Source: Ilumatobacteraceae bacterium (GTDB taxonomy: Bacteria > Actinomycetota > Acidimicrobiia > Acidimicrobiales > Ilumatobacteraceae). Taken from it: DNA of 34,080 nucleotides. Under the pieces are notes generated by a model, which did no database searches, was not told the DNA's origin, and saw only the letters and a list, made by a program, of their open reading frames with translations. The stretch covers positions 1 through 34,080 of the forward strand of contig SHUT01000016.1 of the NCBI GenBank assembly GCA_009691255.1, in the 5' to 3' direction. Every line of letters starts with the position of its first letter. Within the stretch, counting starts at the first letter, position 1. The translations under genes were made by a program, and so were the position numbers. Below, one piece after another: positions 4,304-18,955 of the stretch.

Positions 4304-4363
4304 CGCGTGACGCTTATTTGGGCAGGTCGCACCTTGGCGATGGCGCCTACGATGGGGAGTGCT

Positions 4364-6934
4364 ATGTACGCCGTCCCAGAAAAGCCAACTCTCGAGAATC
4401 TTGAGACCATCTGGCAGGATATTTGGCAGAGCAACAGCACATATGCCTTTGATCGCAGTGCGGTCCGCTCTGATGTTTTCTCAATCGATACGCCCCCTCC
4501 CACGGTGAGCGGTTCACTGCACATGGGGCACATTTTTTCGTACACACATACTGATGCCATTGCCCGATTCTGGCGGATGCGCGGCAAGGCAGTCTTTTAT
4601 CCAATGGGCTGGGATGACAATGGGCTCCCGACAGAAAGACGTGTTCAAAACTTCTTTGGCGTCACATGTGATCCGTCGGTCCAGTATCAACCCAACTTGC
4701 AACCACCGTTTCGAGGCGAACCACCCAAAGACCACAAACCAGTGCCAGTATCGCGGCCAAACTTCATTGAGTTGTGTGAAGAACTCACCGCCCAGGATGA
4801 AAAAGTTTTTGAAGATGTATTTCGTCGACTTGGTTTGTCAATTGATTGGTCATTGCTCTACACCACTATCGAAGACAGATCCCGACGAACCAGCCAGCGG
4901 GCCTTTTTGCGAAACCTCGCACGCGGTGAGGCCTACACACAAGAAGCACCTACCTTGTGGGACATTGATTTTAAAACCGCAGTTGCTCAAGCAGAACTAG
5001 AGGATCGAGACCGACCTGGTGCATATCACGCGATTGTCTTTCATCGCAGTGATGGTGACGGTGACATCGTCGTTGATACCACTCGACCAGAACTACTTGC
5101 CGCTTGTGTTGCACTTGTTGCACACCCAGATGATGAACGTTACAAGTCACTATTTGGCAGCACGGTGCGTACTCCACTCTTTGATGTTGAAGTACCTGTG
5201 CTTGCTCATTCACTCGCCCAAATTGACAAAGGCACTGGAATCGCCATGATTTGCACATTCGGCGACCTAACAGATGTCGTCTGGTGGCGCGAATTGCAAC
5301 TCCCAATGCGTGCAATCATTGGCCGAGATGGTCGCATTTTGGGCGAACCGCCGACAGCAATTTCATCTGCATCTGCGATCGATGTCTATGCCCAACTTGC
5401 CGGCAAAAATACGAAGCAAGCCCAAACTCGGATTGTGGAACTATTGCGTGCATCTGCAGAATTGCGTGGCGAACCGCGTGCAATCATACACCCTGTAAAA
5501 TTTTTTGAAAGAGGAGACCGTCCGCTCGAGATAGTAACGAGTCGCCAGTGGTATATCCGCAATGGCGGACGCGATACAGATTTGCGTGAAGCACTTTTAA
5601 CTCGCGGTGATGATCTCATGTGGCATCCCGATCACATGCGTCACCGATATAGCAATTGGGTAGAAGGTCTTAATGGTGATTGGTTGATAAGTAGACAACG
5701 CTGGTTTGGAGTTCCGGTCCCCGTGTGGTACGCCCTTGATGCTGAAGGCAATGTATTGCACGAATCACCGCTAGTGCCAGATGAATCACTGCTGCCGATT
5801 GATCCAAGCACAGACATGCCTAGTGGATATACGTCTCAACAACGTGGTCAGCCCAATGGATTTGTCGGCGACCCTGATGTCATGGATACATGGGCAACAT
5901 CGTCAATGACGCCGCAGATTGCCGGTAGGTGGGAAGACGATAGTGAGTTCTTTAGCCATATTTTTCCGATGGATCTGCGACCACAAGGCCATGACATCAT
6001 TCGAACTTGGCTGTTCTCGACAACGGTTCGTTCACATTTTGAGTTCGGGATGTTGCCGTGGAAAAACGTTTCACTCTCGGGCTGGATCCTTGACCCAGAT
6101 CGCAAAAAGATGTCCAAATCAAAAGGCAACGTTGTGACGCCAATTGATTTGTTCGATACATACGGAAGTGATGCTGTGCGCTATTGGGCTGCCAGTGCTC
6201 GCCCCGGCGTCGACGCCGCGTTCAGCGAAGATCAAATGAAAGTCGGACGTAAACTCGCAACCAAATTGCTGAACGCCACAAAATTTGTTTTGAGTTTTGG
6301 TGATGTGGACAAGACTGCGACACCTACTGCCGACATAGATGTTGCGATGCTTGCTCGTTTATCTGGCGTCGTTGCAGAGACAACAATCGCATTTGAACAA
6401 TTTGATTATGCTCGTGCACTCGAGCGCACCGAAGATTTTTTCTGGTGGTTTTGTGATGACTATGTAGAACTTGTCAAGATGCGGGCATACGGAAACCGCG
6501 GCGACGATCAAGCAACTAGTGCTAGAGTTGCACTGCAGCGTGCTCTTTCAACACTACAACGACTATTTGCCCCGTTTATTCCCTTTGCCACAGAAGAAGT
6601 CTGGAACTGGTGGAACGACTCGTCCATTCATCTTGCGCCATGGCCAACCCCTCAAGACCTAAATGCTGGCATTGGGCATAGCGTTGAGGATTCAGTGCTC
6701 ACCGCAGTGTGCAGCACAATTGCATTAGTTCGTCGCACAAAAACTGAGGCAAAAGTTAGCCAACGGGCTGAAGTTCAGAACCTCACTATCTCGGGCGACA
6801 TCAATGTGTTGCAAGCGATCAAGGCTGGACTAAGCGATATTGAAGATGCTGGATCTGTTAAATCGTGTGCATTTATAGAGATTTCTGGGGCAGAACTTAC
6901 CGTAAATGTCCACCTGGTTGTGCCCAGTGACTGA
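4364..6934 (+). CDS. valS: Valyl-tRNA synthetase
   Basis: This 856-residue class I synthetase charges tRNA-Val. In order: an N-terminal segment VPEKPTLENLETIWQDIW; the HIGH-type motif SGSLHMGHIFSYTHTDAIARF; the sequence MGWDDNGLPTERRVQ; a large inserted editing (CP1) domain; a second active-site half with VMDTWATSS and GHDIIRTW; KKMSKSKGN; and a helical anticodon-binding domain (about the last 230 residues). I chose the ATG at 4364 because GGGGAG sits 4-5 nt upstream and VPEKPTL begins right after, as in homologues. In-frame GTG 4307 and ATGs 4340 and 4352 would only add unconserved residues. DDNGLPTER is the form I associate with the archaeal/rickettsial-like ValRS branch. Confidence 0.95.
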   Translation: MYAVPEKPTLENLETIWQDIWQSNSTYAFDRSAVRSDVFSIDTPPPTVSGSLHMGHIFSYTHTDAIARFWRMRGKAVFYPMGWDDNGLPTERRVQNFFGVTCDPSVQYQPNLQPPFRGEPPKDHKPVPVSRPNFIELCEELTAQDEKVFEDVFRRLGLSIDWSLLYTTIEDRSRRTSQRAFLRNLARGEAYTQEAPTLWDIDFKTAVAQAELEDRDRPGAYHAIVFHRSDGDGDIVVDTTRPELLAACVALVAHPDDERYKSLFGSTVRTPLFDVEVPVLAHSLAQIDKGTGIAMICTFGDLTDVVWWRELQLPMRAIIGRDGRILGEPPTAISSASAIDVYAQLAGKNTKQAQTRIVELLRASAELRGEPRAIIHPVKFFERGDRPLEIVTSRQWYIRNGGRDTDLREALLTRGDDLMWHPDHMRHRYSNWVEGLNGDWLISRQRWFGVPVPVWYALDAEGNVLHESPLVPDESLLPIDPSTDMPSGYTSQQRGQPNGFVGDPDVMDTWATSSMTPQIAGRWEDDSEFFSHIFPMDLRPQGHDIIRTWLFSTTVRSHFEFGMLPWKNVSLSGWILDPDRKKMSKSKGNVVTPIDLFDTYGSDAVRYWAASARPGVDAAFSEDQMKVGRKLATKLLNATKFVLSFGDVDKTATPTADIDVAMLARLSGVVAETTIAFEQFDYARALERTEDFFWWFCDDYVELVKMRAYGNRGDDQATSARVALQRALSTLQRLFAPFIPFATEEVWNWWNDSSIHLAPWPTPQDLNAGIGHSVEDSVLTAVCSTIALVRRTKTEAKVSQRAEVQNLTISGDINVLQAIKAGLSDIEDAGSVKSCAFIEISGAELTVNVHLVVPSD

Positions 6935-6977: not shown

Positions 6978-8285
6978 ATGTCTCAAGACAAGCCACACCG
7001 CACGAAGCGACAGAAGTTTCTTCTGATTTTCAATACCATGATTGCAAGCAGCTGTATTATTGGCGGCTCCGGGTTGCTGTACGCCAATTATCGACTTGGT
7101 AATCGACAAGTTGTCACCATTGACTCAATAAATGGTGAGGACGAGACTGGTCGCCCGGGCAACGGTGACACCGGAGCTCTTACAAACGAGTGGAACCTGC
7201 CCCCTGGCGATCTATCAGCACGTAATTACCTCATCACCGGAACTGACAGCCGTGGGTGTATCGACCCAAAGTCACCTTTTGCCGGAGGCTTCGGTGATCG
7301 CGCTAACTTTGGCGAACGAAGCGACACCATCATGGTGATTCGCGTAAATCCCCTAGACAATCAAGCGTTGATTCTTTCTTTCCCTCGTGACATGTGGGTA
7401 AAAATTTCAGGGTCAACCCACGAGAGCCGCATCAACTCGGCGTTTCAACGCAAAGACCCAAACAAACTGATCCGAACAATCAAAGAAAACTTTGACATCA
7501 ATATTGATCATTATGTGAATATTGATTTCTGCACATTTAAAGACATTGTTGATGCCGTTGGAGGTGTCAAGGTTCCATTTCTATATCGCACACGAGACAA
7601 GAGCACTGGTCTGAACGTTCCAGAACCAGGATGTTTTACATTTACTGGTGATCATGCTCTTGCCTATGTGCGATCGCGCCACTACAGCTACTACGACACC
7701 GTGAAGAAAAAATGGCGCTTCGACGGGCTCAGCGATTGGGGTCGTATCAGTCGACAACAGGATTTCACTCAACGCATGGTGCAAAGAGCCCTCGGAAAGA
7801 GTCGTACAAATCCCAAGATTGCAACTCAGATGCTAAACACTGCTCTCAAAAATGTCATCACCGATGACAAGCTCACCCCAATGAAACTCTTGCAACTGGC
7901 CCAAGCAATGAAAAACTACGATCCACAGACAATGGGCACATACACAATGCAGGCAATCGGTACCAGAATCGGCAAAGAAAATGTACTGCTTCCTGACCTT
8001 GAGAGTTCCAATATGAAAGATATCCTTTCGATTTTTCGTGGTCAGGCAAGCCTCAAGAAGGCCCCACCTTCAAATGAGGCTACATTAACTACCGATAGCA
8101 CCGCGATGGAAACCTCATTTGTTGTTCAAACGTTGAGTGTGATGTCGGTGTCATACAAGGTGCCAACAGTAGTTACAGCGGCCCCTTCATCAACCACGCC
8201 AACAACCACAACTACGATTCCAGAAGTAGATCCAACTTCCAACAAGCGCGGAATAACGCCACCAGATGATCCGAGTTGTCACTAA
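6978..8285 (+). CDS. LytR-CpsA-Psr (LCP) family cell-wall ligase
   Basis: This 435-residue protein has a short basic cytoplasmic N-terminus, one membrane helix (about residues 15-35, LLIFNTMIASSCIIGGSGLLYANY) and an extracytoplasmic LCP domain. Family landmarks are ITGTDSRG, ERSDTIMVIRVNP, ALILSFPRDMWV, SRINSAF, IDHYVNIDFCTFKDIVDAVGGV and ALAYVRSRHY, including the conserved Asp/Arg residues that bind the polyprenyl-pyrophosphate donor. LCP enzymes transfer glycopolymers from lipid carriers to peptidoglycan. The C-terminal 60 residues are a low-complexity Thr/Pro/Ser linker ending in SCH. It lies 43 bp after valS and is convergent with the VWA gene (16-bp gap). Confidence 0.9.
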   Translation: MSQDKPHRTKRQKFLLIFNTMIASSCIIGGSGLLYANYRLGNRQVVTIDSINGEDETGRPGNGDTGALTNEWNLPPGDLSARNYLITGTDSRGCIDPKSPFAGGFGDRANFGERSDTIMVIRVNPLDNQALILSFPRDMWVKISGSTHESRINSAFQRKDPNKLIRTIKENFDINIDHYVNIDFCTFKDIVDAVGGVKVPFLYRTRDKSTGLNVPEPGCFTFTGDHALAYVRSRHYSYYDTVKKKWRFDGLSDWGRISRQQDFTQRMVQRALGKSRTNPKIATQMLNTALKNVITDDKLTPMKLLQLAQAMKNYDPQTMGTYTMQAIGTRIGKENVLLPDLESSNMKDILSIFRGQASLKKAPPSNEATLTTDSTAMETSFVVQTLSVMSVSYKVPTVVTAAPSSTTPTTTTTIPEVDPTSNKRGITPPDDPSCH

Positions 8286-8301: not shown

Positions 8302-9303
8302 TTACTCCAACACTCGAGCCAAGGCTTCTGGTATCTCTGATGGTCCACCTATTAAAGTCAATCGTGCACCAACTGAACTAGACAAGAGGCGTGCTTCATC
8401 AGCATCTTGTTCTGGAGCAATGATGACAAGTTCTTCTAGGCTTCGTGCTGCTGCTTCGACATCGCCTTCGACTGTGGCTCGACAATCACTTAACAGCACA
8501 GCCACGCGTCGTCCGGCGCGCGAGCGCGATAACTGCTGATTCGCCACGATCAATGCGCCCGCAAGGTCAGTTGTGCCAAAACCCCGAAGCGTAAGAACAT
8601 CGTTCACTACTGCATCACTCGATTTTTCAATATCCTGGGATTTTGCAATCACAATATCTTTTCCAAAAGCGAGCACACTGTAATCACTCGGCGCTCTGCA
8701 CGCTACGGCAGCGGCGGCAATGGCGGCAGTTGCAAGTGGTTTTCCGCCCATTGATCCGCTTCGATCAACTATCAAACACAGCGCAACACCAGGCTTTGAC
8801 CATCCGCGTACGCGCAAACGATCTGGGTCTGGAGCTACGCCGTGTCGCAACTCATTCAGCGCATCAAGACTGGCATCAATATCAAGATCACCAGCATCTG
8901 GTTGATATGGCTGCTCGGTCATGCGACCAACTCCACGCGGCTTCGTGGGGCCACTTCGACCAAGATCAAGCATGAGTCGACCAGCTAATCGCCGCGCGAG
9001 CTCTCTCAACTTTGGATCAGTCGCAGCAGTCAGATCAGCAATCATGCCAAGCGTCTCATCTGGGTTACTTTGCATCGCTTCGTCGACTGCAAGTTCATCG
9101 AGTTGACCAACTTCTGGCGACACCTGAGCAAAGTTTTGATGTCGTGCAAGTTCACGACGAGATGTCGTCTGTCGGCCTGCTTGGGCAACCGCCTCATCGG
9201 CGGCTTGACCTTCTTTGCTTAGTGGGAGTTGGTGGCCCCGCTCGGGGCTCCAACTTTTCCCGCGGTGTTTTCTCCGTCCGCACGACCAAACACGTCTTGC
9301 CAA
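8302..9303 (-). CDS. VWA-domain protein, partner of MoxR
   Basis: The C-terminal half is a von Willebrand factor A domain with an intact MIDAS: LIVDRSGSMGG (DxSxS), a threonine/aspartate loop (GFGTTDLAGAL) and LLSDCRATVEGD. The N-terminal half is helical and charged, with LTAATDPKLRELARRLAGRLMLDLGR and GDLDIDASLDALNELR. This is the usual form of the VWA partner encoded next to MoxR ATPases, thought to recruit or release substrates for metal-dependent assembly. The longest frame uses a TTG at 9303 inside moxR, an 85-bp overlap. The true start may be nearer 9220, but no ATG or GTG is found there, so the N-terminus is uncertain. Last gene of the ADH-ADH-MoxR-VWA operon. Confidence 0.82.
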   Translation of the reverse strand: MARRVWSCGRRKHRGKSWSPERGHQLPLSKEGQAADEAVAQAGRQTTSRRELARHQNFAQVSPEVGQLDELAVDEAMQSNPDETLGMIADLTAATDPKLRELARRLAGRLMLDLGRSGPTKPRGVGRMTEQPYQPDAGDLDIDASLDALNELRHGVAPDPDRLRVRGWSKPGVALCLIVDRSGSMGGKPLATAAIAAAAVACRAPSDYSVLAFGKDIVIAKSQDIEKSSDAVVNDVLTLRGFGTTDLAGALIVANQQLSRSRAGRRVAVLLSDCRATVEGDVEAAARSLEELVIIAPEQDADEARLLSSSVGARLTLIGGPSEIPEALARVLE

Positions 9304-10142
9304 ATCTCGGTCACGATTTCTTCAGATGTTCGATTACAACCTTCTCGCACGCGAACACGCCCACTCAATGCCACGAGCGCGGCATCAAGCGAAACGCTCG
9401 GTTGAGAGGCTTCTTGATCGCGAAGTTCTGCCAACGATTGCGCCACGAGCACAGTATCGACTGCTCCACGCACAGATGAACCGACCCGTAGATCTGGATG
9501 TACTCGTGTACGCCGAACAACTTCGACAACACCATCGATCCAAGTTGTGTTTAAGTTTCCGCGGGTTATTTTGCGTTCAACGATTTCTTTTTCTTCTTCT
9601 GATATTTGGTATCCCATTGACACGCGACACACGCGGTCATACACCGCTGCAGAAATTCGAGCAGTTCCGACAGCATCAAATGGATTCATTGCCGCAACTA
9701 ATCGAAAACCACTTGTTGCCACTACGGGAGCCAAGCGAGGTACATGGATTTCGCCTTCACTCATAACAGTAATTAAAACATTGAGAGTTTCTTCTGGGAT
9801 GCGATTGATTTCTTCGACATAGAGCAACGATCCATCACGCAATGCCGTCACGAGTGGGCCATCAACAAACACCTCAGGGTCATACCCTTGAGTCATCACT
9901 CGAGCCGGGTCAAAGTGCCCAACTAATCGCGCGGGAGTAAGTTCGGCATTACCCTCCACAAATTCAAATCCAATACCTAGTCCACTTGCGACTGCACGCA
10001 ACACCGTGGACTTACCTGTTCCGGGAGGACCCTCTAGCAATACATGTCGATCCGCAGCGAGTGCGGCCAATACAAGCTCGAGTTCGCGTCTCCGACCGAC
10101 GACTTGCGTGCAGAGTTGGTCAAGTAGTTGTCTACTAGCCAT
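9219..10142 (-). CDS. MoxR-family AAA+ ATPase
   Basis: This 307-residue AAA+ protein has Walker A GPPGTGKST (residues 38-46), Walker B LLYVEEINR, a sensor-1 region FRLVAAMNPFD and arginine-finger/sensor-2 features (RVCRVSMGY, HPDLRVGSSVRGAVD). MoxR ATPases act with VWA proteins as chaperones inserting metals or cofactors or assembling enzyme complexes; the founding member was linked to methanol dehydrogenase maturation. The ATG overlaps the end of the upstream alcohol dehydrogenase by 8 nt, indicating translational coupling. The position directly after two alcohol dehydrogenases suggests it serves one or both; that is inference. Confidence 0.9.
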   Translation of the reverse strand: MASRQLLDQLCTQVVGRRRELELVLAALAADRHVLLEGPPGTGKSTVLRAVASGLGIGFEFVEGNAELTPARLVGHFDPARVMTQGYDPEVFVDGPLVTALRDGSLLYVEEINRIPEETLNVLITVMSEGEIHVPRLAPVVATSGFRLVAAMNPFDAVGTARISAAVYDRVCRVSMGYQISEEEKEIVERKITRGNLNTTWIDGVVEVVRRTRVHPDLRVGSSVRGAVDTVLVAQSLAELRDQEASQPSVSLDAALVALSGRVRVREGCNRTSEEIVTEIWQDVFGRADGENTAGKVGAPSGATNSH

Positions 10143-11286
10143 ACACGATCACGCCACGAAGATTCTCGCCGTCGCGCATCGCTCGATATCCCTCGTTAAT
10201 TTGTTCAATACTGTATGTCTTTGTAATGAGCTCATCTAATTTGAGCTGACCAGCACGGTACATATCAAGAAGTGCTGGAATATCAGCCCGTGGGTTAAGG
10301 CTGCCAAAGATGGTTCCTTTGATTTCTTTGTTCCACATCGCAAGCTGGAAAAGATTGATACTTGCAGTGCTGTCCATCATTGGAGAAATGGCAGTGACCA
10401 CAACGGTGCCGCCCTTGCCCGCAAGGGTCATGCCCGACTCCATCATCTCTCCACGCAAAACACCCGGAGTCATGATGACTCTGTCTGCCATTTGACCCCA
10501 TGTCATTTCCATCACTGCAGGAATCGCTTCTTCCATCGAAGAAAACGTGTGTGTTGCCCCAAACTCCATTGCCTTCTCGCGTTTGAATTCGACGGGATCA
10601 ATCGCAATAATTCGAGTCGCACCTGCCATGCGTGCGCCTTGAACAGCGTTCATGCCGATGCCACCGATTCCGACAACGACGACTGTGTCTCCGGCTTGAG
10701 TTCCGGCGCGACTTGTTGCTGAGCCCCATCCCGTCGCCACGCCACAAGACACCAGAGCGACACATTCAAACGGAATATCTTGTTCAACTTTGATCACAGA
10801 GTCTTCAGCAACACATGAGTATTCGCTAAATGTTCCCAACTTGGCCATCAACGTCACAGGCTTGTCTCCGCGTGCAAAGTGACGGTGTGTTCCGTCTGTA
10901 ATCATTCCGCCAATAAATGTTTGGGCACCAGCATCGCACAGGTTTTGACGACCAGTGCTGCAATAACGACAGCGACCACAACTCGGTACAAAACTCGCAG
11001 ATACATGGTCTCCGACTTTGACGCTCGTAACACCTAGACCAACCTCTATAACAACGCCGGCACCCTCATGACCCCCGATGATGGGAAAGAAGTCTTCGAT
11101 ACCCATAAACGCCCATGCCTCTTTGGGTGGAACCAAGTCACCTGTCACTAGATGCTCATCACTGTGACACAAACCTGCGGCTCTCCATTGCACCAAGACT
11201 TCTTTGGCCTTCGGAGCATGAACATCGATCTCTTCAACGCTCCACTCTTGATTGAGTCCCCACAACACTGCTGCTTTTGATTTCAT
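10135..11286 (-). CDS. Zinc alcohol dehydrogenase, NDMA-dependent/mycofactocin-associated type (paralogue 1)
   Basis: This 383-residue zinc-dependent medium-chain dehydrogenase has a catalytic zinc site at C40 and H73-E74 (GGHEGAG), structural zinc cysteines at 103, 106, 109 and 117, and a Rossmann fold VVVVGIGGIGMNAVQGARMAGA. The beginning (MKSKAAVLWGLNQEWSVEEI) and ending (YRAMRDGENLRGVIVYG) fit the NDMA-dependent alcohol dehydrogenase group, whose members hold NAD(H) tightly and need mycofactocin to recycle it. Compared with its neighbour it carries about 12 extra residues (52-67, VPPKEAWAFMGIEDFF) just before the zinc-binding GGHEG. A strong ribosome-binding site (AGGAAAAGGA) precedes the ATG. 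The preceding ADH stop lies 54 bp upstream. Confidence 0.9.
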   Translation of the reverse strand: MKSKAAVLWGLNQEWSVEEIDVHAPKAKEVLVQWRAAGLCHSDEHLVTGDLVPPKEAWAFMGIEDFFPIIGGHEGAGVVIEVGLGVTSVKVGDHVSASFVPSCGRCRYCSTGRQNLCDAGAQTFIGGMITDGTHRHFARGDKPVTLMAKLGTFSEYSCVAEDSVIKVEQDIPFECVALVSCGVATGWGSATSRAGTQAGDTVVVVGIGGIGMNAVQGARMAGATRIIAIDPVEFKREKAMEFGATHTFSSMEEAIPAVMEMTWGQMADRVIMTPGVLRGEMMESGMTLAGKGGTVVVTAISPMMDSTASINLFQLAMWNKEIKGTIFGSLNPRADIPALLDMYRAGQLKLDELITKTYSIEQINEGYRAMRDGENLRGVIVYG

Positions 11287-11340: not shown

Positions 11341-12453
11341 TCAGTCCAAAACTAAAACGCCACGAATGTTTTTGCCGTCGCGCATTGCCTGGTAACCCTC
11401 GTTGACTTCTTCAAGTGGATACCGTTTAGTAATCAGGCCATCTAGATCAAGTTGACCGGCACGGTACAAACCAATCAGTTTGGGAATATCAGAGCGCGGA
11501 TTGCCAGAACCAAACAACGAGCCCACGACCTGCTTCTCCATCAGTGTGAGATCTAACAAGTTCATTGTTGCGCTCATCTCAAATGCGGGGTGAATATTGG
11601 TAACGACGACGCGTCCACGCTTTGCAGTCAGTGCCATCGCTTCTGCCATGAGTGCACCATTACCCACGCCCATTGTCATGATGACTTTGTTGGCCATGGT
11701 TCCCCATGTGATGTCTTGCAACAATGGCAATGCTTCTGTCATCGAAGCGGCAGTGTGTGTCGCACCAAGTTCCATCGCTTTTTCACGCTTGAATTCGACA
11801 GGATCAATTGCCACGATGCGCTTTGCACCCGCAAGTTTTGCTCCTTGAATTGCATTCGCGCCAATACCACCAATACCAACAACTGCCACGGTGTCGCCAG
11901 GTCGCGTTTCGGCGGCATACACGGCGCTTCCCCAACCCGTTACAACACCACATCCGAGCAGACATGCGCGGTCGAGCGGAATATCGTTGTCGATCTTGAT
12001 GCACGATGCTTCGTTCACCACAGTGTGGTTGGCAAATGTTCCTAGCAAACACATTGTGCCTAGATCTTGGCCTTTGGCATGATGGCGCGACCCACCATCA
12101 GTAATCTGTCGACCTGTTCCCATGAGGGCTCCCAGGTCACACAGGTTTTGGTGTCCACGTGAACAACTCGCACATTTTCCGCACGATGGAATAAATCCAA
12201 AGACCACATGATCCCCGATGGCAAGCCAACTCACGCCGGCTCCTACTTCTTGCACTACGCCCGCACCCTCATGACCCCCGATGATGGGTAGACCAAAGGG
12301 CAAGTCACCGGTCACGAGGTGTTCGTCACTGTGGCACATGCCCGATGCGGCAATTTTAACCAGCACTTCGCCAGGGCCTGGCGGGTCAAGTTCGATCTCT
12401 TCGACGCTCCATGGCGTATTTAGTTCCCACAGGATTGCTGCCTTGGTCTTCAT
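11341..12453 (-). CDS. Zinc alcohol dehydrogenase, NDMA-dependent/mycofactocin-associated type (paralogue 2)
   Basis: This 370-residue paralogue of the next gene shares its layout throughout: MKTKAAILWELNTPWSVEEI at the start, catalytic zinc residues C40, H61 and E62, structural cysteines at 91, 94, 97 and 105, and the Rossmann segment VAVVGIGGIGANAIQGAKLAGA. It lacks the insertion seen in paralogue 1. This type oxidises primary alcohols with non-exchangeable NAD(H), which mycofactocin is thought to reoxidise. First gene of the operon, preceded by GGGGGAA 3 nt before the ATG, and divergent from mftA across 156 bp. That arrangement is strong context for being a mycofactocin client; substrate unknown. 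Confidence 0.9.
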   Translation of the reverse strand: MKTKAAILWELNTPWSVEEIELDPPGPGEVLVKIAASGMCHSDEHLVTGDLPFGLPIIGGHEGAGVVQEVGAGVSWLAIGDHVVFGFIPSCGKCASCSRGHQNLCDLGALMGTGRQITDGGSRHHAKGQDLGTMCLLGTFANHTVVNEASCIKIDNDIPLDRACLLGCGVVTGWGSAVYAAETRPGDTVAVVGIGGIGANAIQGAKLAGAKRIVAIDPVEFKREKAMELGATHTAASMTEALPLLQDITWGTMANKVIMTMGVGNGALMAEAMALTAKRGRVVVTNIHPAFEMSATMNLLDLTLMEKQVVGSLFGSGNPRSDIPKLIGLYRAGQLDLDGLITKRYPLEEVNEGYQAMRDGKNIRGVLVLD

Positions 12454-12609
12454 TGATTCCCCCGATGCTTGTTAACACTTATTATTTACGCTGAGCCCTG
12501 CGCTCTTATCCCTCACCCTGACATTACCTAAAAATCTGCCCGACCTTCTATTGGTGCCATGTCACGGGACAGACTTTCCAGCATGGTGCTCATTGAGTAC
12601 GCTCAAGGT
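12454..12609. promoter_or_regulatory. Divergent promoter region between the ADH operon and the mycofactocin operon
   Basis: On the plus strand TTTCCA (12575-12580), a 17-nt spacer and TACGCT (12598-12603) form a plausible -35/-10 pair, with the mftA ATG 6 nt after the -10. On the minus strand an AT-rich stretch around 12472-12492 lies upstream of the GGGGGAA ribosome-binding site of the first ADH. I see no strong inverted repeat that would be an obvious regulator site, and no TetR-type mftR gene adjoins. Confidence 0.5.
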
Positions 12610-12759
12610 ATGCAAACTCCCCCCACTCCAGAAACCGACTCCTCTCCAGAAATCTCCCCCCATGGCTCTGCACACCCAGAATCAGCCGTCATCGTAGCCC
12701 TTGAAGAAGAGCTCCTGATTGAGGAAATCTCGATCGACGGCATGTGTGGCGTCTACTAA
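12610..12759 (+). CDS. mftA: Mycofactocin precursor peptide MftA
   Basis: This 49-residue peptide ends exactly in IDGMCGVY, the invariant C-terminus of mycofactocin precursors. The final Val-Tyr dipeptide is decarboxylated and cross-linked by MftC and later released to become the redox core. The remainder is acidic (ALEEELLIEEIS, a typical leader helix bound by MftB) after a Pro/Ser/Thr/Glu-rich N-terminus. In-frame ATGs exist at 12559 and 12583, but only the ATG at 12610 has a -10 box (TACGCT) at the 6-nt distance seen for leaderless starts in this window, giving the usual precursor size. mftB starts 21 bp downstream. Confidence 0.93.
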   Translation: MQTPPTPETDSSPEISPHGSAHPESAVIVALEEELLIEEISIDGMCGVY

Positions 12760-12780
12760 AGATCGTTTGCACTCCCTAAC

Positions 12781-13047
12781 ATGACAATCACCATCGACTC
12801 TGCGTGCGAGCTTGACCCCCGTGTCTCGCTACGACCAGAACCATTTGGTGCACTTGCATACCACTACGGAAACAGAAGGCTTGTTTTTTTGCGCCATCCT
12901 GATGTTGTGTCAGTGGTCAAGGCATTAGGCGAGCATGCATCAGTGCGCGAAGCACTTGTAGCCAACTCTGTTCTGGAAGCCAGGTGGCCTGCGTTTGTAT
13001 CGGCAATTGATTCACTCTTGACATCGGAGATCGTCCGTGTCCGTTAG
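12781..13047 (+). CDS. mftB: Mycofactocin precursor-binding chaperone MftB
   Basis: This 88-residue protein contains the conserved MftB block LDPRVSLRPEPFGALAYHYGNRRLVFLRHPDVVSVV (given here only to name its position, residues 12-47). It is a PqqD-like peptide-recognition fold that binds the MftA leader and presents the C-terminus to MftC. The order directly after mftA and the 11-nt overlap with mftC are those of known clusters. No Shine-Dalgarno precedes the ATG, so translation probably depends on coupling to mftA. Confidence 0.92.
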   Translation: MTITIDSACELDPRVSLRPEPFGALAYHYGNRRLVFLRHPDVVSVVKALGEHASVREALVANSVLEARWPAFVSAIDSLLTSEIVRVR

Positions 13048-14167
13048 TCCACTCATCGCCGAACTCAAGCAAGGTCTTGACGCCCCCATCTGTTTGACAT
13101 GGGAGCTTACATACGCCTGCAACTTGTCATGCATTCACTGCCTTAGCAGTAGCGGACAACGTGACCCCAATGAGTTGACAACAGCGCAGGCAAAAGCGGT
13201 GCTTGACGAGTTGCGTGATCTTCAGGTGTTCTACATCAACATTGGTGGTGGCGAGCCAATGATCCGTCGCGATTTTTTTGAAATTCTTGAACACTCAAGT
13301 AAAAATGGAATAGGTGTCAAGTTTTCCACGAACGGTGCTTTCATTGATGCCGAAAAAGCACGCCGTCTTGCGGCGATGGATTACCTCGATATTCAAATCA
13401 GCCTCGATGGTGTTGATGCCAATACAAATGATGCAGTACGCGGAATAGGTTCGTACAACATTGCGCGACGGGCAATGGACAATCTTGCAGCAGCAAATTT
13501 TGGTCCGTTTAAGATCTCTGTTGTCATGACTCGGCACAACGTGTCACAACTTGATCAATTTAAAGCTCTCGCTGACTCATACGGAGCGCAACTGCGCATC
13601 ACGCGGCTGCGCCCCGCCGGTCGCGGTGCCGACACATGGAACGACTTGCATCCGACCAACGAACAACAGAGAGAAATCTACAACTGGCTGATGTCGCATG
13701 GCGACAATGTCCTTACGGGTGATTCGTTCTTTCATCTCAATGCACTTGGTCCAGCGTTGCCTGGACTCAATATGTGTGGCGCCGGTCGAGTTGTATGCCT
13801 CATCGATCCAGTCGGTGATGTTTACGCATGCCCCTTTGTTATTCATGAAGAATTCAAAGCGGGAAGCGCCCTTGATGCTGGTGGTTTTACCAAGGTGTGG
13901 CGCGAATCCGCATTGTTTACAGAACTTCGAGAGCCCCAAAGTGCCGGAGCATGTGCATCGTGTGGTTCATACGATGCATGTCAAGGTGGTTGTATGGCGG
14001 CAAAGTTTTTTACAGGCCTGCCACTTGATGGGCCTGATCCCGAATGCGTCAAAGGACACGGAGAAAACTCGCTCTTGGCGGTGCCGATTTTGCTCATGCC
14101 CCGACCCACGCCTGACCACAGTAAACCGACATTGATCAAGTTGCACCAACCGGCCGTGAAAGTCTGA
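13037..14167 (+). CDS. mftC: Mycofactocin radical SAM maturase MftC
   Basis: This 376-residue radical SAM/SPASM protein has the SAM cluster motif C28-N-L-S-C32-I-H-C35, followed by a glycine-rich SAM-binding strand (INIGGGEPMIRRDF) and a C-terminal SPASM region with cysteines in MCGAGRVVC, VYACPF and CASCGSYDACQGGC for auxiliary iron-sulfur clusters. In the known pathway MftC oxidatively decarboxylates the C-terminal Tyr of MftA and then forms a carbon-carbon bond with Val. The GTG start at 13037 overlaps mftB, and plsY starts 1 nt after the stop. All the residues I expect for activity are present. Confidence 0.95.
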   Translation: MSVSPLIAELKQGLDAPICLTWELTYACNLSCIHCLSSSGQRDPNELTTAQAKAVLDELRDLQVFYINIGGGEPMIRRDFFEILEHSSKNGIGVKFSTNGAFIDAEKARRLAAMDYLDIQISLDGVDANTNDAVRGIGSYNIARRAMDNLAAANFGPFKISVVMTRHNVSQLDQFKALADSYGAQLRITRLRPAGRGADTWNDLHPTNEQQREIYNWLMSHGDNVLTGDSFFHLNALGPALPGLNMCGAGRVVCLIDPVGDVYACPFVIHEEFKAGSALDAGGFTKVWRESALFTELREPQSAGACASCGSYDACQGGCMAAKFFTGLPLDGPDPECVKGHGENSLLAVPILLMPRPTPDHSKPTLIKLHQPAVKV

Positions 14168-14168
14168 G

Positions 14169-14771
14169 ATGTTTGCCACCACGATCGCAGTCGTCGTGAT
14201 GTTTTTGTTCTCGTACTTTCTTGGCACATTCCCGAGCGCAATTATGGTGGCCAAGAGCAAGGGCCTTGACATTATGCAAATCGGCTCGGGCAACCCTGGC
14301 GCCAGCAACATTGCGCGCGCCATGGGCTGGAAATATGGCGCAGCCGTTTTTATTATGGATGCGGGCAAGGGATCAATTGCCACGCTGATCGGAATCTCCG
14401 TATCAGATCGTCGGCTTGGTTATGTCTGCGGAGCGGCTGCAATTCTCGGACACATGTTTCCGGTGCAACGCAAATTCAAAGGCGGCAAAGGTGTTGCAAC
14501 TGGAGCAGGAATTATTTTTGTGATGTATTTCTTCGTGATGCTATTGCTTGCAGTGATGTGGGTGGTGTCGCTCAAACTGACAAAAAAGGCGTCTATCGGC
14601 TCAATAGTGCTCTTGCCGTTGCTTCCGATTCTCTTCGCCGTGGCAGGCGCGCCAGCATGGGAGATATGGACAACTATCGGGCTCGGAGTCATCATCGAGA
14701 TTCGCCACACTACCAACATCAAGCGACTGCTCTCTGGAAGTGAGCCACCTCTTGGTGGAGCATCTTCGTAA
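14169..14771 (+). CDS. plsY: PlsY-like glycerol-3-phosphate acyltransferase inside the mycofactocin operon
   Basis: This 200-residue polytopic membrane protein carries the PlsY motifs: FLGTFPSAIMVAKSKGLDIMQIGSG begins the first (residues 14 onward), then SGNPGASNIARAMG, DAGKGSIATLIG, and later GHMFPVQRKFKGGKGVATGAG. PlsY uses acyl-phosphate to acylate glycerol-3-phosphate at the inner membrane. The gene begins 1 nt after mftC stops and is followed 9 bp later by dedA, so it is certainly co-transcribed with the mycofactocin genes. Whether it is the housekeeping PlsY that merely rides in this operon or a variant acting on a mycofactocin intermediate cannot be told from sequence. Confidence 0.9.
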   Translation: MFATTIAVVVMFLFSYFLGTFPSAIMVAKSKGLDIMQIGSGNPGASNIARAMGWKYGAAVFIMDAGKGSIATLIGISVSDRRLGYVCGAAAILGHMFPVQRKFKGGKGVATGAGIIFVMYFFVMLLLAVMWVVSLKLTKKASIGSIVLLPLLPILFAVAGAPAWEIWTTIGLGVIIEIRHTTNIKRLLSGSEPPLGGASS

Positions 14772-14780
14772 CCAAACAAC

Positions 14781-15407
14781 ATGTTTTCTATTCTTGATAC
14801 TTTTTTCAATTGGCTTGAAGAATTTTCTTCATCTCCATCTTTTTACTTAGTGATATTTGGTATTGCAATTACAGACTCCATAATCCCAATTGTGCCCAGC
14901 GAAACAATGGTCATCATCGCTGGGGTAAGTGCCGGCAGTGGGCAACTCTTCTTGCCCCTAGTCATCATTGCTGCCGCTGGTGGCGCATTTGTCGGAGACA
15001 ACCTGAGCTATCTCATTGGTCGTTCTGCGTCAGCACTAATCACTCGACACTACGAGCGCAAAGAAAAAGGGCGCAAGAGGCTGGAGTGGGCTCACGCTCA
15101 GGTTCGTGAGCGAGGTGGACTACTTTTGGTCACTGCCCGATTTATTCCAGGAGGTCGCACCATCGTCACCATGTCTTGTGGAATCACTAATCAAACTCAT
15201 CGCTGGTTCGCCCAATGGGTTCTGTTGGCTGGCGCTATTTGGGCAACATACGCTTCTTTGCTCGGTTATATAGGTGGTAAGACTTTCGGCGACAATCACA
15301 CCCTTGCATTCTTGGTGGCATTTGGCCTTGCACTCTCAGCCACCATTGTTATTGAGTTTATTCGCGCCGTGCGCAAGAGGCGTTCAAGCAGCCCTAACCT
15401 GCACTGA
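14781..15407 (+). CDS. DedA-family membrane protein inside the mycofactocin operon
   Basis: This 208-residue membrane protein shows the DedA/VTT pattern: an acidic re-entrant-loop motif PIVPSETMVIIAG, GGAFVGDNLSYLIGRSAS, and the second re-entrant motif with the conserved arginines, ARFIPGGRTIVTMSCG, followed by the helical hairpin WVLLAGAIWATYASLLGYIGG. DedA proteins are proton-driven transporters or scramblases linked to lipid-carrier recycling and phospholipid flipping. Its stop overlaps the mftE start (TGATG), tying it into the operon. Its link to mycofactocin is positional only. Confidence 0.88.
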   Translation: MFSILDTFFNWLEEFSSSPSFYLVIFGIAITDSIIPIVPSETMVIIAGVSAGSGQLFLPLVIIAAAGGAFVGDNLSYLIGRSASALITRHYERKEKGRKRLEWAHAQVRERGGLLLVTARFIPGGRTIVTMSCGITNQTHRWFAQWVLLAGAIWATYASLLGYIGGKTFGDNHTLAFLVAFGLALSATIVIEFIRAVRKRRSSSPNLH

Positions 15408-16075
15408 TGACGCTCGAAGCGCACCCAGTGCTCGTTCTTCCGATCGGTGCATACGAACAGCACGGAGCCCACCTGCCCCTCGATACCGATACGCGCATTG
15501 CCACTGCCATCGCCCAACTTGCTCTTCTTCGTTGCCAATCAAGCGATTTTGTTCTTGCACCAGCGCTACCAATTTCCGCCAGTGACGAACATCAAGGATT
15601 CAATGGCACTCTGAGCGCCGGAACACACGCCACCCAAGAGTTTCTCGTGGCTGTGTGTCGATCTGCAACATGGAGTCGCGGTGTCGTACTGGTCAATGGC
15701 CATGGCGGCAATGCAGATGCACTTCAATCTGTGCACTACGCGCTTGACGACGAGCGCATCACTCATGCAATCTGGTCTGTGACCGGGGCAGCAATCACCG
15801 ATACACATGCTGGTCATTTTGAGACATCAATCATGTTGCATCTTTTCCCTGAGTTGGTGCAACGCGATACCGCAACGATTGGCAACACCACCGCGCTTGA
15901 TCAACTCATGCCCACCATGCGAAAAGATGGTCTCCGTGCTGTATCTCTGACGGGTGTTCTTGGCGACCCAACTACCGCTACAGCAGTAGATGGTGGCGTA
16001 TTTGTCGAACAGAATGTTTTATCGCTTACACAAGTTTTGCGGCATTGCGCATCAACTTGGAATTCGTCTTCATGA
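15407..16075 (+). CDS. mftE: Mycofactocin peptidase MftE (creatininase family)
   Basis: This 222-residue creatininase-fold metallopeptidase has metal-binding landmarks GAYEQHGAHLPLDTDT (E17, H19, H22, D26/D28), LVNGHGGNAD and AGHFETS. In known pathways MftE cleaves MftC-processed MftA near its end, liberating the cyclised Val-Tyr-derived core (AHDP). The start codon ATG shares a base with the dedA stop, and the stop overlaps the mftF start (ATGA), so it is tightly coupled on both sides. The family usually has about 230-250 residues, so the length is normal to slightly short. Confidence 0.92.
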   Translation: MTLEAHPVLVLPIGAYEQHGAHLPLDTDTRIATAIAQLALLRCQSSDFVLAPALPISASDEHQGFNGTLSAGTHATQEFLVAVCRSATWSRGVVLVNGHGGNADALQSVHYALDDERITHAIWSVTGAAITDTHAGHFETSIMLHLFPELVQRDTATIGNTTALDQLMPTMRKDGLRAVSLTGVLGDPTTATAVDGGVFVEQNVLSLTQVLRHCASTWNSSS

Positions 16076-17463
16076 AGAGTGCCTGGCACATTGATTCTTC
16101 GTGGTACCGCAACACAGACGGACACGTAGTTTTTGCCGGCTCACCATTGCGCGCATTTAAACTCTCTGATGCCGGTGCCACCATTGCGCAAGCGCTCGAA
16201 CAAGGTGATCCACTTCTGCCCGGCCACGAACAACTCACAAACAGGCTGATTCAAGCAGGCGCACTACATCCGAGTCTCGCCGATGCAGTATCTCCACATG
16301 AAATAACAATCGTTATTCCTGCGTACACGTGTAGCTCAGCCGACTTGAGTACCTTGCAGACGCTCATCGCACAATTTACAAATCATCTTGTGATTGTTGT
16401 AGATGATGCATCTCCGATACAGGTTGTTGCTGAGGGCATCACCGTCGTGCGGCACTCCACCAATCAAGGTCCTGGCGCTGCCCGCAACACAGCACTTCAA
16501 ATCGTGTCTAGTCCGTACGTTGCATTCGTTGACATCGATGCATCAATAACTAGCAAGAATCTCTGTGTTCTTGCTTCGCACTTTCAAGATGAGGCGGTTG
16601 GCATTGTGGCTCCACGTGTGGTTTCGGGTGGTTCCACCTTGTTTGTTGGGCGATTTATTGGGCGATTTATTGGGCGCTACGAAGTCACTCGATCACCACT
16701 CGATATGGGCCCCGAACCAGCCCTTGTGAAACCGCTAACCAGAGTCTCTTTTGTTCCATCCACAATCCTTCTTGCTCGCACCGACGCAGTTCGTCAGTGC
16801 AACGGGTTTGACGAAGGCATGCGTTATGGCGAAGACGTCGACTTAGTGTGGAGGCTCTCTGATGCAGGAGTCATGTGTCGATACGAACCACAAATCACGG
16901 GCAATCACATGCCACGTGCGTCACTACGAAAATTTATTGTGCAGCGCTTTAACTACGGCACTAGTGCAGCTGCTCTTGCGCGTGACCATGGCTCGCGCGT
17001 TGCTCCGTTTGCTGCAAACATCTTCACAATTGGACTTTGGGTTTCTGCGGCTTCGTGGTTGCCTCTGTTTGCTGGATTATTTTTGGTTGTTCAAATTGTC
17101 GCTTCATCGGTCATATTGCTTCGTGCCGGCGACGACCTCGCCCACGCGTGCATAATTGTGGCCAGTGGCATCATGCATTCCGCTCGCATGTTTGCAGATG
17201 CAATAATGCGGGCATGGTTGTGGCCAGTTATCGTTCTTTTATTTTTTTTCCCCCAACTCGTATGGACAATCATCCTGGTATTTGTAGTTCCAGCATTATT
17301 TGAGTGGTCTCGCTCTCGCACCCTGAATCCACTTGCCTTTATTGCACTTCGCACTATTGATAACTCTGCTTATTGCCTTGGCGTTTGGAGCGGCGTGTTG
17401 CAACAGAAATCTCTAGCCGCACTCTTACCCAGAATTACTATCTGGCGACGACGCGCAGGCTGA
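16072..17463 (+). CDS. mftF: Mycofactocin glycosyltransferase MftF
   Basis: This 463-residue protein starts MKSAWHIDSSWYR at the ATG that overlaps the mftE stop (ATGA); the longer frame from 16045 would lie inside mftE. An N-terminal PqqD-like segment is followed by a GT-A family 2 domain: EITIVIPAY, VIVVDDASP, STNQGPGAARNTAL, FVDIDASI (metal/sugar-nucleotide acidic motif), GFDEGMRYGEDVDLVWRL, then three or four C-terminal membrane helices. In mycobacteria MftF adds a beta-glucan chain to premycofactocin. An internal 12-bp duplication at 16648-16671 makes the peptide GRFIGRFIGRY. Its 3' end overlaps the convergent DUF4395 gene by 26 bp. Confidence 0.92.
   Translation: MKSAWHIDSSWYRNTDGHVVFAGSPLRAFKLSDAGATIAQALEQGDPLLPGHEQLTNRLIQAGALHPSLADAVSPHEITIVIPAYTCSSADLSTLQTLIAQFTNHLVIVVDDASPIQVVAEGITVVRHSTNQGPGAARNTALQIVSSPYVAFVDIDASITSKNLCVLASHFQDEAVGIVAPRVVSGGSTLFVGRFIGRFIGRYEVTRSPLDMGPEPALVKPLTRVSFVPSTILLARTDAVRQCNGFDEGMRYGEDVDLVWRLSDAGVMCRYEPQITGNHMPRASLRKFIVQRFNYGTSAAALARDHGSRVAPFAANIFTIGLWVSAASWLPLFAGLFLVVQIVASSVILLRAGDDLAHACIIVASGIMHSARMFADAIMRAWLWPVIVLLFFFPQLVWTIILVFVVPALFEWSRSRTLNPLAFIALRTIDNSAYCLGVWSGVLQQKSLAALLPRITIWRRRAG
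16648..16676 (+). repeat. 12-bp tandem duplication within mftF
   Basis: GGGCGATTTATT occurs twice head-to-tail (16648-16659, 16660-16671), followed by a partial third copy GGGCG. It adds four residues (GRFI) in frame and looks like replication slippage. Confidence 0.85.
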
Positions 17464-17938
17464 CGTCATTGCACTCAGCACACACTGATGCTGGAATAAT
17501 TTTCCAGCGCATGAGTTGAGCAAAAACAAGACACCCTAAGCACACCCCAGCAAAAGACTCAAGCGATGCGGCCACCGCGAGCAAGGTGATCGTCACTGTT
17601 GCTGCAAAATGTAAATTTTGAAGCCATAGTGCACTTGCAGTGAGCGAAAATAGTACACCGATGGCTTGTGCAAAACGTTTTGGTGGCCCCGGAACAAGGC
17701 GCTCAGACAACGAAAGTCGAGGAGTGATGAGTTGAGTTGTAATGCGGCCAAGAGGGCTCAATCGTGGCCCAGTCAGCACCCGCGCAATGAATCCGTAGCT
17801 AAGAGGCAATAGAGCCCATCCGCTTTGGGTCACCACAAACACAACGCTCATCAACACCACGCCACCTGCCACTATGCGAGCAGCCACCTCATTGACAGGG
17901 TTTGGAAATGAAAAGAATTCAAAAGTTCTGCGAGCCAT
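17438..17938 (-). CDS. DUF4395 family membrane protein
   Basis: This 166-residue protein has about four membrane helices. The DUF4395 pattern is clear: it begins with FPNPVNEVAARIVAG, has SPLGRITTQLITPRL in the middle, and ends with ESFAGVCLGCLVFAQLM, containing the CLGC cysteine pair typical of the family. The function is unknown. In other actinobacteria such genes often sit near thioredoxin/sulfurtransferase-type genes, but none adjoins it here. A TATCGT box precedes the ATG by 6 nt. The 3' end overlaps mftF. Confidence 0.85.
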   Translation of the reverse strand: MARRTFEFFSFPNPVNEVAARIVAGGVVLMSVVFVVTQSGWALLPLSYGFIARVLTGPRLSPLGRITTQLITPRLSLSERLVPGPPKRFAQAIGVLFSLTASALWLQNLHFAATVTITLLAVAASLESFAGVCLGCLVFAQLMRWKIIPASVCAECNDVSLRVVAR

Positions 17939-17944
17939 ACAGTC

Positions 17945-17950
17945 ACGATA
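17945..17950 (-). promoter_or_regulatory. -10 box of the DUF4395 gene, leaderless start
   Basis: TATCGT on the minus strand is followed by 6 nt and then the ATG at 17938. No ribosome-binding site is visible. Confidence 0.5.
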
Positions 17951-17985
17951 GAGCCTTATTCCCGACTAAACAATTGATTGACCGC

Positions 17986-17991
17986 TACCGT
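17986..17991 (+). promoter_or_regulatory. -10 box of the racemase-like gene, leaderless start
   Basis: TACCGT is followed by 7 nt and then the ATG at 17999. This supports that start over the in-frame TTG at 17978. Confidence 0.45.
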
Positions 17992-17998
17992 TTGGGTT

Positions 17999-18955
17999 AT
18001 GACTTTACGGCTTACCGTGCATCAGGCTCGCTGGAAAGAGCATGTACAGGCCACGGCGCTTCAGTTTGCCGGTCTGGTCCCAGTCATCAAAGGCAATGGA
18101 TACGGCTTGAGACGCTGGAACCTGATGCCACTGGCGAGCGAACTTTCGTCAGAGATTGCTGTTGGCACTGTGTATGAAGTGCGAGATATTCCCCCAGGAG
18201 TCACGCCAATGGTGCTTACTCCCATCATGTCTGCGCCACCCAACACGATGCCAGTCTCTACCGTGCTCACGATTGGTCGCCTTGAGCACATCATGGCGCT
18301 ATCACATTTTCAGTGGACCGGAAATGTAGTAGTAAAACTTCAGTCATCAATGTTGAGGTATGGGACGACGAAGGAAAAACTTGCTGATCTATTAGCAGAA
18401 GCCAGAAGTGCACATCTCAACGTTGTTGGGTTCTCTATTCACCCACCCCTTGATGGTGAAATGCAAATGCATGTCAAAGACATCGAAAATTGGCTTGAGC
18501 ACATCGATTCTGCTCTTCCGATTTACATCAGCCATGTCAATGCTTCTGCAGTACGTCAACTTCGCAAATATCATCCACAATATGAATTCAAGATAAGACT
18601 CGGAACAGAGTTATGGCTTGGTGACAAATCAATGATGCAACTTAGCGCCGACGTATTAGACCGTCATTCCGTCGAATCATCTCAAACTGTTGGTTATCGG
18701 CAACAAAAAGTTTCAGGAATGGGTGAAATCGTTCTCGTCGGAGCCGGCAGTGCACATGGAGTTGCCCCTCTCGACGACGGCCGTAGTCCATTTCACTTTC
18801 AGAAGCAACGAATCAACCTTCACGAAGCACCGCATATGCACACCTCAATGCTCTTTATCGCACGTGGTAGACTAGTGCCATCAATTGGCGAATGGATCGA
18901 TGTACAGCGCCCACTTACACAAGTACAAGTCGATGTTTTACAGTGGGCAAAATAA
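17999..18955 (+). CDS. Alanine-racemase-like PLP enzyme
   Basis: This 318-residue protein has a fold-type III barrel: LVPVIKGNGYGL with the PLP lysine K31 (compare VVKANAYGH in Alr), a strand/helix series with VVVKLQSSMLRYGT, VVGFSIHPPL and ISHVNASAVRQL, a RPGIALYG-like element (KIRLGTELWLGD), and a shorter C-terminal beta domain with TVGYRQ supplying a candidate catalytic tyrosine. It is shorter and clearly diverged from housekeeping alanine racemases (about 360-390 residues), so it may make D-alanine or act on another amino acid. It is followed after 24 bp by a membrane acyltransferase and sits across from DUF4395. Confidence 0.75.
   Translation: MTLRLTVHQARWKEHVQATALQFAGLVPVIKGNGYGLRRWNLMPLASELSSEIAVGTVYEVRDIPPGVTPMVLTPIMSAPPNTMPVSTVLTIGRLEHIMALSHFQWTGNVVVKLQSSMLRYGTTKEKLADLLAEARSAHLNVVGFSIHPPLDGEMQMHVKDIENWLEHIDSALPIYISHVNASAVRQLRKYHPQYEFKIRLGTELWLGDKSMMQLSADVLDRHSVESSQTVGYRQQKVSGMGEIVLVGAGSAHGVAPLDDGRSPFHFQKQRINLHEAPHMHTSMLFIARGRLVPSIGEWIDVQRPLTQVQVDVLQWAK

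Follow-up and report, generated by a model that had tools for sequence, protein, structure and literature searches.

What are two membrane-protein genes doing in the middle of a mycofactocin (mft) operon, and what performs the step of the gene that is missing from it? The question is raised by the window, a stretch of 34,080 nucleotides (nt; contig SHUT01000016.1 of assembly GCA_009691255.1, from an Ilumatobacteraceae bacterium), in which tightly packed mft genes have plsY and dedA between mftC and mftE and no mftD in the cluster. An earlier note on this DNA had described both features; the gene order was borne out by profile scores, and mftD is indeed absent from the cluster. Very probably, the window holds a normal and probably complete mycofactocin locus with two housekeeping membrane genes set between its mft genes; the biochemical steps, the co-transcription and the housekeeping roles of plsY and dedA are those that we infer from the sequence. 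The genes, in their order along the window, are:

12610 to 12759, plus strand: mftA, precursor peptide with the C-terminus IDGMCGVY (TIGR03969, 47 bits, cut-off 25)
12781 to 13047, plus strand: mftB, peptide chaperone (TIGR03967, 88.9 bits, cut-off 33)
13037 to 14167, plus strand: mftC, radical SAM maturase (TIGR03962, 620 bits, cut-off 265)
14169 to 14771, plus strand: plsY, glycerol-3-phosphate acyltransferase (PF02660, 147.9 bits, cut-off 24.1)
14781 to 15407, plus strand: dedA, VTT-domain membrane protein (PF09335, 71.6 bits, cut-off 33.9)
15407 to 16075, plus strand: mftE, creatininase-family peptidase (TIGR03964, 229 bits, cut-off 172)
16072 to 17463, plus strand: mftF, glycosyltransferase (TIGR03965, 319 bits, cut-off 280)

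MftA, MftB, MftC, MftE and MftF all score above the NCBIfam equivalog cut-offs. The longest open reading frame (ORF) for mftA begins at 12559, and mftF starts at ATG 16072 or TTG 16045. The short spacings and start/stop overlaps of the earlier note hold in both the ORF table and the sequence: mftB and mftC overlap by 11 nt, mftC and plsY are separated by 1 nt and plsY and dedA by 9 nt, dedA and mftE overlap by 1 nt, and mftE and mftF by 4 nt if ATG 16072 is the start. From 12300 to 18100, promoter-like matches (6, vs. 5.1 in shuffled sequence) and terminator-like matches (9, vs. 6.3) were both near chance. Like the mftABCDEF cluster of Haft (2011), the window has these five Mft proteins beside NDMA-dependent dehydrogenases; it differs in carrying plsY-dedA between mftC and mftE and in having mftD unlinked. 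The available excerpt of that paper (PMC3023750) places the MftD family in most, not all, mycofactocin species.

The missing gene lies elsewhere in the same genome (G000; 1.76 Mb in 73 contigs, 84.6% complete), one of two possibilities that the earlier note had raised. MftD is encoded on contig C7 (13402-14550, minus strand; 667 bits vs. a cut-off of 471), between genes for a TPR protein and a solute-binding protein, and no other mft protein was labeled on this 19.5-kb contig; a second match to the MftD model, on C8, stays below the cut-off at 260 bits. Oxidation of AHDP is thus covered in this genome without any new enzyme. A second mft locus was sought and rejected, since the search for mftC at E 1e-60 gave one match and none further. 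Throughout the family, by comparison of the printed coordinates, mftD was not seen beside mftC, and the closest same-contig pairs located are about 15-21 kb apart (G220, G243, G232, G208). Separately, the neighborhood of the unlinked mftD at locus L105 (G134) includes an MftE-like gene and the racemase-like gene found after mftF in the window, and two genomes, G069 (C27, C54) and G233 (C25, C6), have two mftC copies each.

The MftD step is described, in the available excerpts, as the deamination of AHDP to premycofactocin (PMC11778925, PMC11162802), and as aerobic (PMC8406134). In the source genome, MftB and MftC would cyclize the Val-Tyr end of MftA, MftE would release AHDP, MftD from its lone gene on C7 would oxidize AHDP to premycofactocin, MftF would glycosylate the latter, and the mycofactocin so made would serve the two NDMA-dependent alcohol dehydrogenases encoded upstream. 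PlsY would make lysophosphatidate for membrane lipids and DedA would be a general membrane transporter-like protein, both genes riding in the mft transcript.

The earlier note had offered two readings of plsY and dedA, a lipid- or carrier-linked step in mycofactocin synthesis and mere hitch-hiking by housekeeping genes, and it is the second that is better supported, by the single PF02660 match, by a place kept without mft genes and by the nested PlsY tree. The window protein resembles the PlsY glycerol-3-phosphate acyltransferase in its PF02660 match and its motifs, with GSGNPGASNIAR and GGKGVAT stretches, and differs only in gene neighborhood. It scores 129.6 bits with the NCBIfam PlsY equivalog model, 7.6 below the 137.2 cut-off; in 31 of 86 rows a strict motif pattern missed one motif or the other, and the pattern was taken to be too narrow. 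The search for a second plsY that the earlier note had proposed found none, this being the sole PF02660 match in the source genome, which, within the limits of an incomplete genome, favors a housekeeping role; all nine genomes of the window's genus have exactly one such match each. dedA is likewise the only VTT match over the cut-off (a weaker one, 31.4 bits, is on C33), and its product falls far below the NCBIfam cut-offs for UptA, the undecaprenyl phosphate transporter (45.4 and 36.4 vs. 300 and 250 bits). Both genes seem to be housekeeping genes that have become enclosed in the mft operon.

The alternative, that PlsY acylates a form of mycofactocin or that DedA flips a lipid-linked one, draws on the tight spacing and on an order conserved in most of the family. 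Our family sample comprised 121 genomes taken from a larger group, of which 99 were positive for mftC at E 1e-60 and 22 negative. In 67 of the 99, plsY follows mftC on the same strand within 400 nt, so that the arrangement is not due to chance and a conserved mftC-plsY order, for which the earlier note had proposed a survey of relatives, does exist; downstream on the same strand anywhere in the stretch examined, it was found in 79. plsY was not seen near mftC at the remaining 20 loci, several of which end at contig boundaries. Coordinates add it for four of them, at 2.0-4.9 kb in G199, G226 and G257 and 128 nt from the second mftC in G233; it lies about 35 kb from mftC in G184 and on other contigs in G157, G166, G185 and G200.

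Four observations stand against such a pathway role: the close plsY-mftC order (within 400 nt) persists with either type of oxidase (see below), the single plsY match per genome in the genus would have to be shared with lipid synthesis, plsY adjoined mftC in none of the 49 mftC-positive genomes of the order sampled outside the family (by visual comparison of coordinates, with a threshold of E 1e-15 for plsY; by tblastn, PlsY was found at 0 of 47 checked mftC loci there), and the two genes hold their position in genomes that lack mft. As a separate observation, 14 outside-family genomes have a high-scoring plsY about 1.3-2.5 kb, by coordinates, from a different radical SAM gene that scores 50-61 bits to the MftC model (G118:C69, G034:C37, G111:C46, G023:C2, G054:C30, G128:C22, G014:C29, G068:C208, G119:C22, G035:C17, G085:C28, G113:C32, G005:C1 and G044:C6).

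The last of the four comes from what amounts to a natural deletion, for which the genes flanking the cluster in the window are needed:

4307 to 6934, plus strand: class I aminoacyl-tRNA synthetase, left flank (PF00133, 248 bits)
6978 to 8285, plus strand: LytR-CpsA-Psr family protein, left flank (PF03816, 117.7 bits)
8302 to 9303, minus strand: VWA-domain protein, CoxE-like (PF05762, 32.9 bits, cut-off 26.4)
9219 to 10142, minus strand: MoxR-like AAA ATPase (PF07728, 92.8 bits; PF20030 bpMoxR, 39.5 bits)
10135 to 11286, minus strand: second NDMA-dependent alcohol dehydrogenase (TIGR03989, 546 bits, cut-off 440)
11341 to 12453, minus strand: NDMA-dependent alcohol dehydrogenase, divergent from mftA (TIGR03989, 557 bits, cut-off 440), a presumed mycofactocin client
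17438 to 17938, minus strand: DUF4395 gene, between mftF and the racemase-like gene
17978 to 18955, plus strand: alanine-racemase-N-domain protein, right flank (PF01168, 45.5 bits)

Two genera, g118 and g124, with nine genomes each, have no mftC and make up 18 of the 22 mftC-negative family genomes; a PF02660 match was found in 16 of these 18. Six of their loci were read by tblastn, three per genus (L099-L104), and all six have the tRNA synthetase, LytR-CpsA-Psr, plsY, dedA and racemase-like genes in a row, with the LytR-CpsA-Psr gene directly before plsY and the racemase-like gene directly after dedA. These genes are shared by the window, in which plsY is additionally preceded by the VWA-MoxR-dehydrogenase-mftABC block and dedA is followed by mftEF. 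A tree built from 86 PlsY sequences places all six from the mft-less loci in a single clade (support 91) nested within the mft-linked ones, with genus g120 as its sister (98, starred); the simplest explanation is that g118 and g124 lost their mft genes while plsY-dedA stayed. Acylation or flipping of mycofactocin by PlsY or DedA was therefore rejected as the lead reading; nothing was found in support of it, and we consider it very improbable.

Several points nonetheless weigh against the housekeeping reading. At 84.6% completeness a second plsY could be missing from the source genome, the role of PlsY as the acyltransferase of lipid synthesis is itself presumed, and a PF02660 match was missing from two of the 18 mft-less genomes, perhaps because these are incomplete. 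A quick method was used for the PlsY tree, with SH-aLRT support only and a midpoint root in place of an outgroup, and the lasting co-linearity of mft and plsY-dedA could reflect a functional tie.

The other possibility that the earlier note had raised, a different oxidase for the MftD step, is unneeded in the source genome and likely in roughly half the relatives studied. MftD was found at E 1e-100 in 44 of the 121 family genomes, 41 of them above the cut-off; in the other genomes, ORFs of about 630 amino acids (aa) near mftC or plsY proved to be TIGR03996, the NCBIfam “mycofactocin system FadH/OYE family oxidoreductase 1” (OYE, old yellow enzyme; cut-off 627.9 bits). Eight proteins scanned were four TIGR03996 (645-736 bits), two TIGR03997, one MftD and one unrelated, a flavin monooxygenase-like protein from a 646-aa ORF after plsY in L083 that was set aside. 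At E 1e-120, TIGR03996 is present in 50 of the 121 genomes, 44 of them above the cut-off with 633-754 bits; the source genome had no match at this threshold or at E 1e-100, and the window's genus belongs to the MftD type. The 99 mftC-positive family genomes divide into 44 with MftD only, 48 with TIGR03996 only, none with both and seven with neither (Fisher test 7e-21, kinship ignored). Six of those seven have TIGR03996, whole or cut, near mftC by tblastn (G158, G162, G169, G202, G221, G246), leaving G216 with neither protein. Both types occur within genera g116 and g5. Two mftC-negative genomes, G192 and G195, also carry TIGR03996.

Outside the family, at curated cut-offs, the 49 mftC-positive genomes comprise 26 with MftD only, 16 with TIGR03996 only, one with both and six with neither. 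Among the six, TIGR03996 is cut in G072 and MftD is cut in G131 and G143, G082 and G117 have TIGR03996-like proteins below the cut-off (429 and 437 bits), and G077 has neither. The genome with both, G069, has two mft clusters, C27 with MftD and C54 without either oxidase, and its TIGR03996-TIGR03997 pair is on C1, where no mft gene was seen in the 14 kb read. The peptide to be processed is alike on both sides: MftA ends in SIDGMCGVY in 66 of 72 MftD-type and 67 of 73 TIGR03996-type genomes (the remaining 12 gave no pattern match in the stretch examined), so the same core has to be oxidized in both. On an MftC tree of 145 of the 148 rows (three short ones were dropped; G069, G077 and G216 were unlabeled and partial cases were labeled as found), the oxidase label changes 18 times by parsimony, vs. 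47.6 for shuffled labels, and five of these changes are forced by starred branches; the 18 are an estimate from a single-gene tree made by a quick method with several long branches.

The proposed alternative module would contain an iron-sulfur/FAD/FMN (flavin adenine dinucleotide, flavin mononucleotide) enzyme of the old-yellow-enzyme superfamily. In a predicted model of TIGR03996 (35 sequences, pLDDT 86.9, pTM 0.84), the nearest folds are 2-naphthoyl-CoA reductase, histamine dehydrogenase, 2,4-dienoyl-CoA reductase, pseudooxynicotine amine oxidase and trimethylamine dehydrogenase, whose best chains give template modeling (TM) scores of 0.82-0.88. The histamine and trimethylamine dehydrogenases and the two reductases match along the whole length (TM 0.85 to 0.88, 21-25% identity). 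Amine oxidation is thus within the repertoire of this superfamily, as are reductions. All four 4Fe-4S cysteines are retained in 30 of the 35 sequences. At the position of a tyrosine in 2,4-dienoyl-CoA reductase that we take to be catalytic, 32 of the 35 members have serine, which speaks mildly against an ene-reductase. They also differ from histamine dehydrogenase at the cysteine that presumably binds its flavin, with Val24 in the query and cysteine in 0 of 35.

Taken together, in relatives without mftD it is probably the TIGR03996 flavoprotein near mftC that oxidizes AHDP, an assignment to premycofactocin synthase that we infer from its exclusion with MftD. By analogy with histamine dehydrogenase, a hydride would pass from the amine carbon to the FMN, and the electrons would leave via the 4Fe-4S cluster and FAD, so that AHDP oxidation need not use oxygen.

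Some of our own results count against such a replacement. When named genomes were scanned with a single TIGR03996 protein as query, 80 loci were found (many from genomes counted before), with MftC in 66 and MftD in three; these three, in Rhodococcus marinonascens (L265), a Rhodococcus sp. (L272) and Rhodococcus jostii (L273), have MftC-MftD-TIGR03996-TIGR03997 in one row, so the exclusion is not universal. TIGR03997 shows the same pattern as TIGR03996, scoring above its cut-off in 44 family genomes (none of MftD type and 42 of TIGR03996 type), and it, or the pair, may be the MftD substitute. The 2-naphthoyl-CoA and 2,4-dienoyl-CoA reductases are as near in fold as the amine-oxidizing enzymes, and five of the 35 members (L247, L252, L256, L264 and L278, from Amycolatopsis, Prauserella and Pseudonocardia) are without at least one 4Fe-4S cysteine, so that the cluster is not needed everywhere.

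The Rhodococcus loci would also suit a different explanation, in which TIGR03996 and TIGR03997 are users or recyclers of mycofactocin and the loss of MftD is covered by another, unseen enzyme, as would the fact that TIGR03997 can lie away from mftC (e.g., G102:C22 vs. mftC on C8). We consider this rather unlikely: near-perfect exclusion with MftD over 18 inferred switches is unexpected for a user enzyme, and outside the family, no genome among the 16 with only TIGR03996 has an MftD-model match above 337 bits (cut-off 471), six of the 16 having no match at all at E 1e-60. A divergent MftD hidden in TIGR03996-type genomes was rejected in the same way, since only matches of about 210-337 bits were found at that threshold; matches in this range occur also in MftD-type and mftC-negative genomes. 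Those without any match at E 1e-60 are G004, G041, G049, G060, G063, G072, G082, G091 and G102.

It seems reasonably likely that two interchangeable oxidation modules, MftD on the one hand and TIGR03996, usually with TIGR03997, on the other, carry out the same oxidative deamination and have repeatedly replaced each other in this order, the TIGR03996 version possibly without oxygen. If so, mycofactocin production may extend to oxygen-poor settings, and rules that require mftD would miss 73 of the 148 mftC-positive genomes as labeled here, about half; antiSMASH 6.1, according to the available part of PMC11162802, required an mftD profile for detection. The same excerpt (BGCFlow) describes mycofactocin-like clusters of Saccharopolyspora with mftC and mftB, without mftD and with an OYE-family gene (TIGR03997), and cites a methylated mycofactocin produced by S. 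erythraea; in that part it names only TIGR03997 and gives no exclusion test. We found TIGR03996 between MftC and TIGR03997 at five of five named Saccharopolyspora loci, and no MftD in the stretch examined at these five. No exclusion test of MftD and TIGR03996 and no plsY-mft linkage was found in the literature searched, a partial selection outside of which most subscription papers lie. A likely false lead, acylated mycofactocin, is removed, and a testable question is gained: by which enzyme premycofactocin is produced where the cluster lacks mftD, as many clusters do.

The genes upstream of mftA add a further observation. Many mft loci in the order have a MoxR-like ATPase and a VWA protein next to their NDMA-dependent alcohol dehydrogenases, and the pair occurs beside dehydrogenases with both oxidase types (e.g., 8302-10142 in the window, L070, L091, L122, L200 and L208). 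MoxR-like ATPase/VWA pairs assist the assembly of other enzymes, and those found here may mature the neighboring NDMA-dependent alcohol dehydrogenases.

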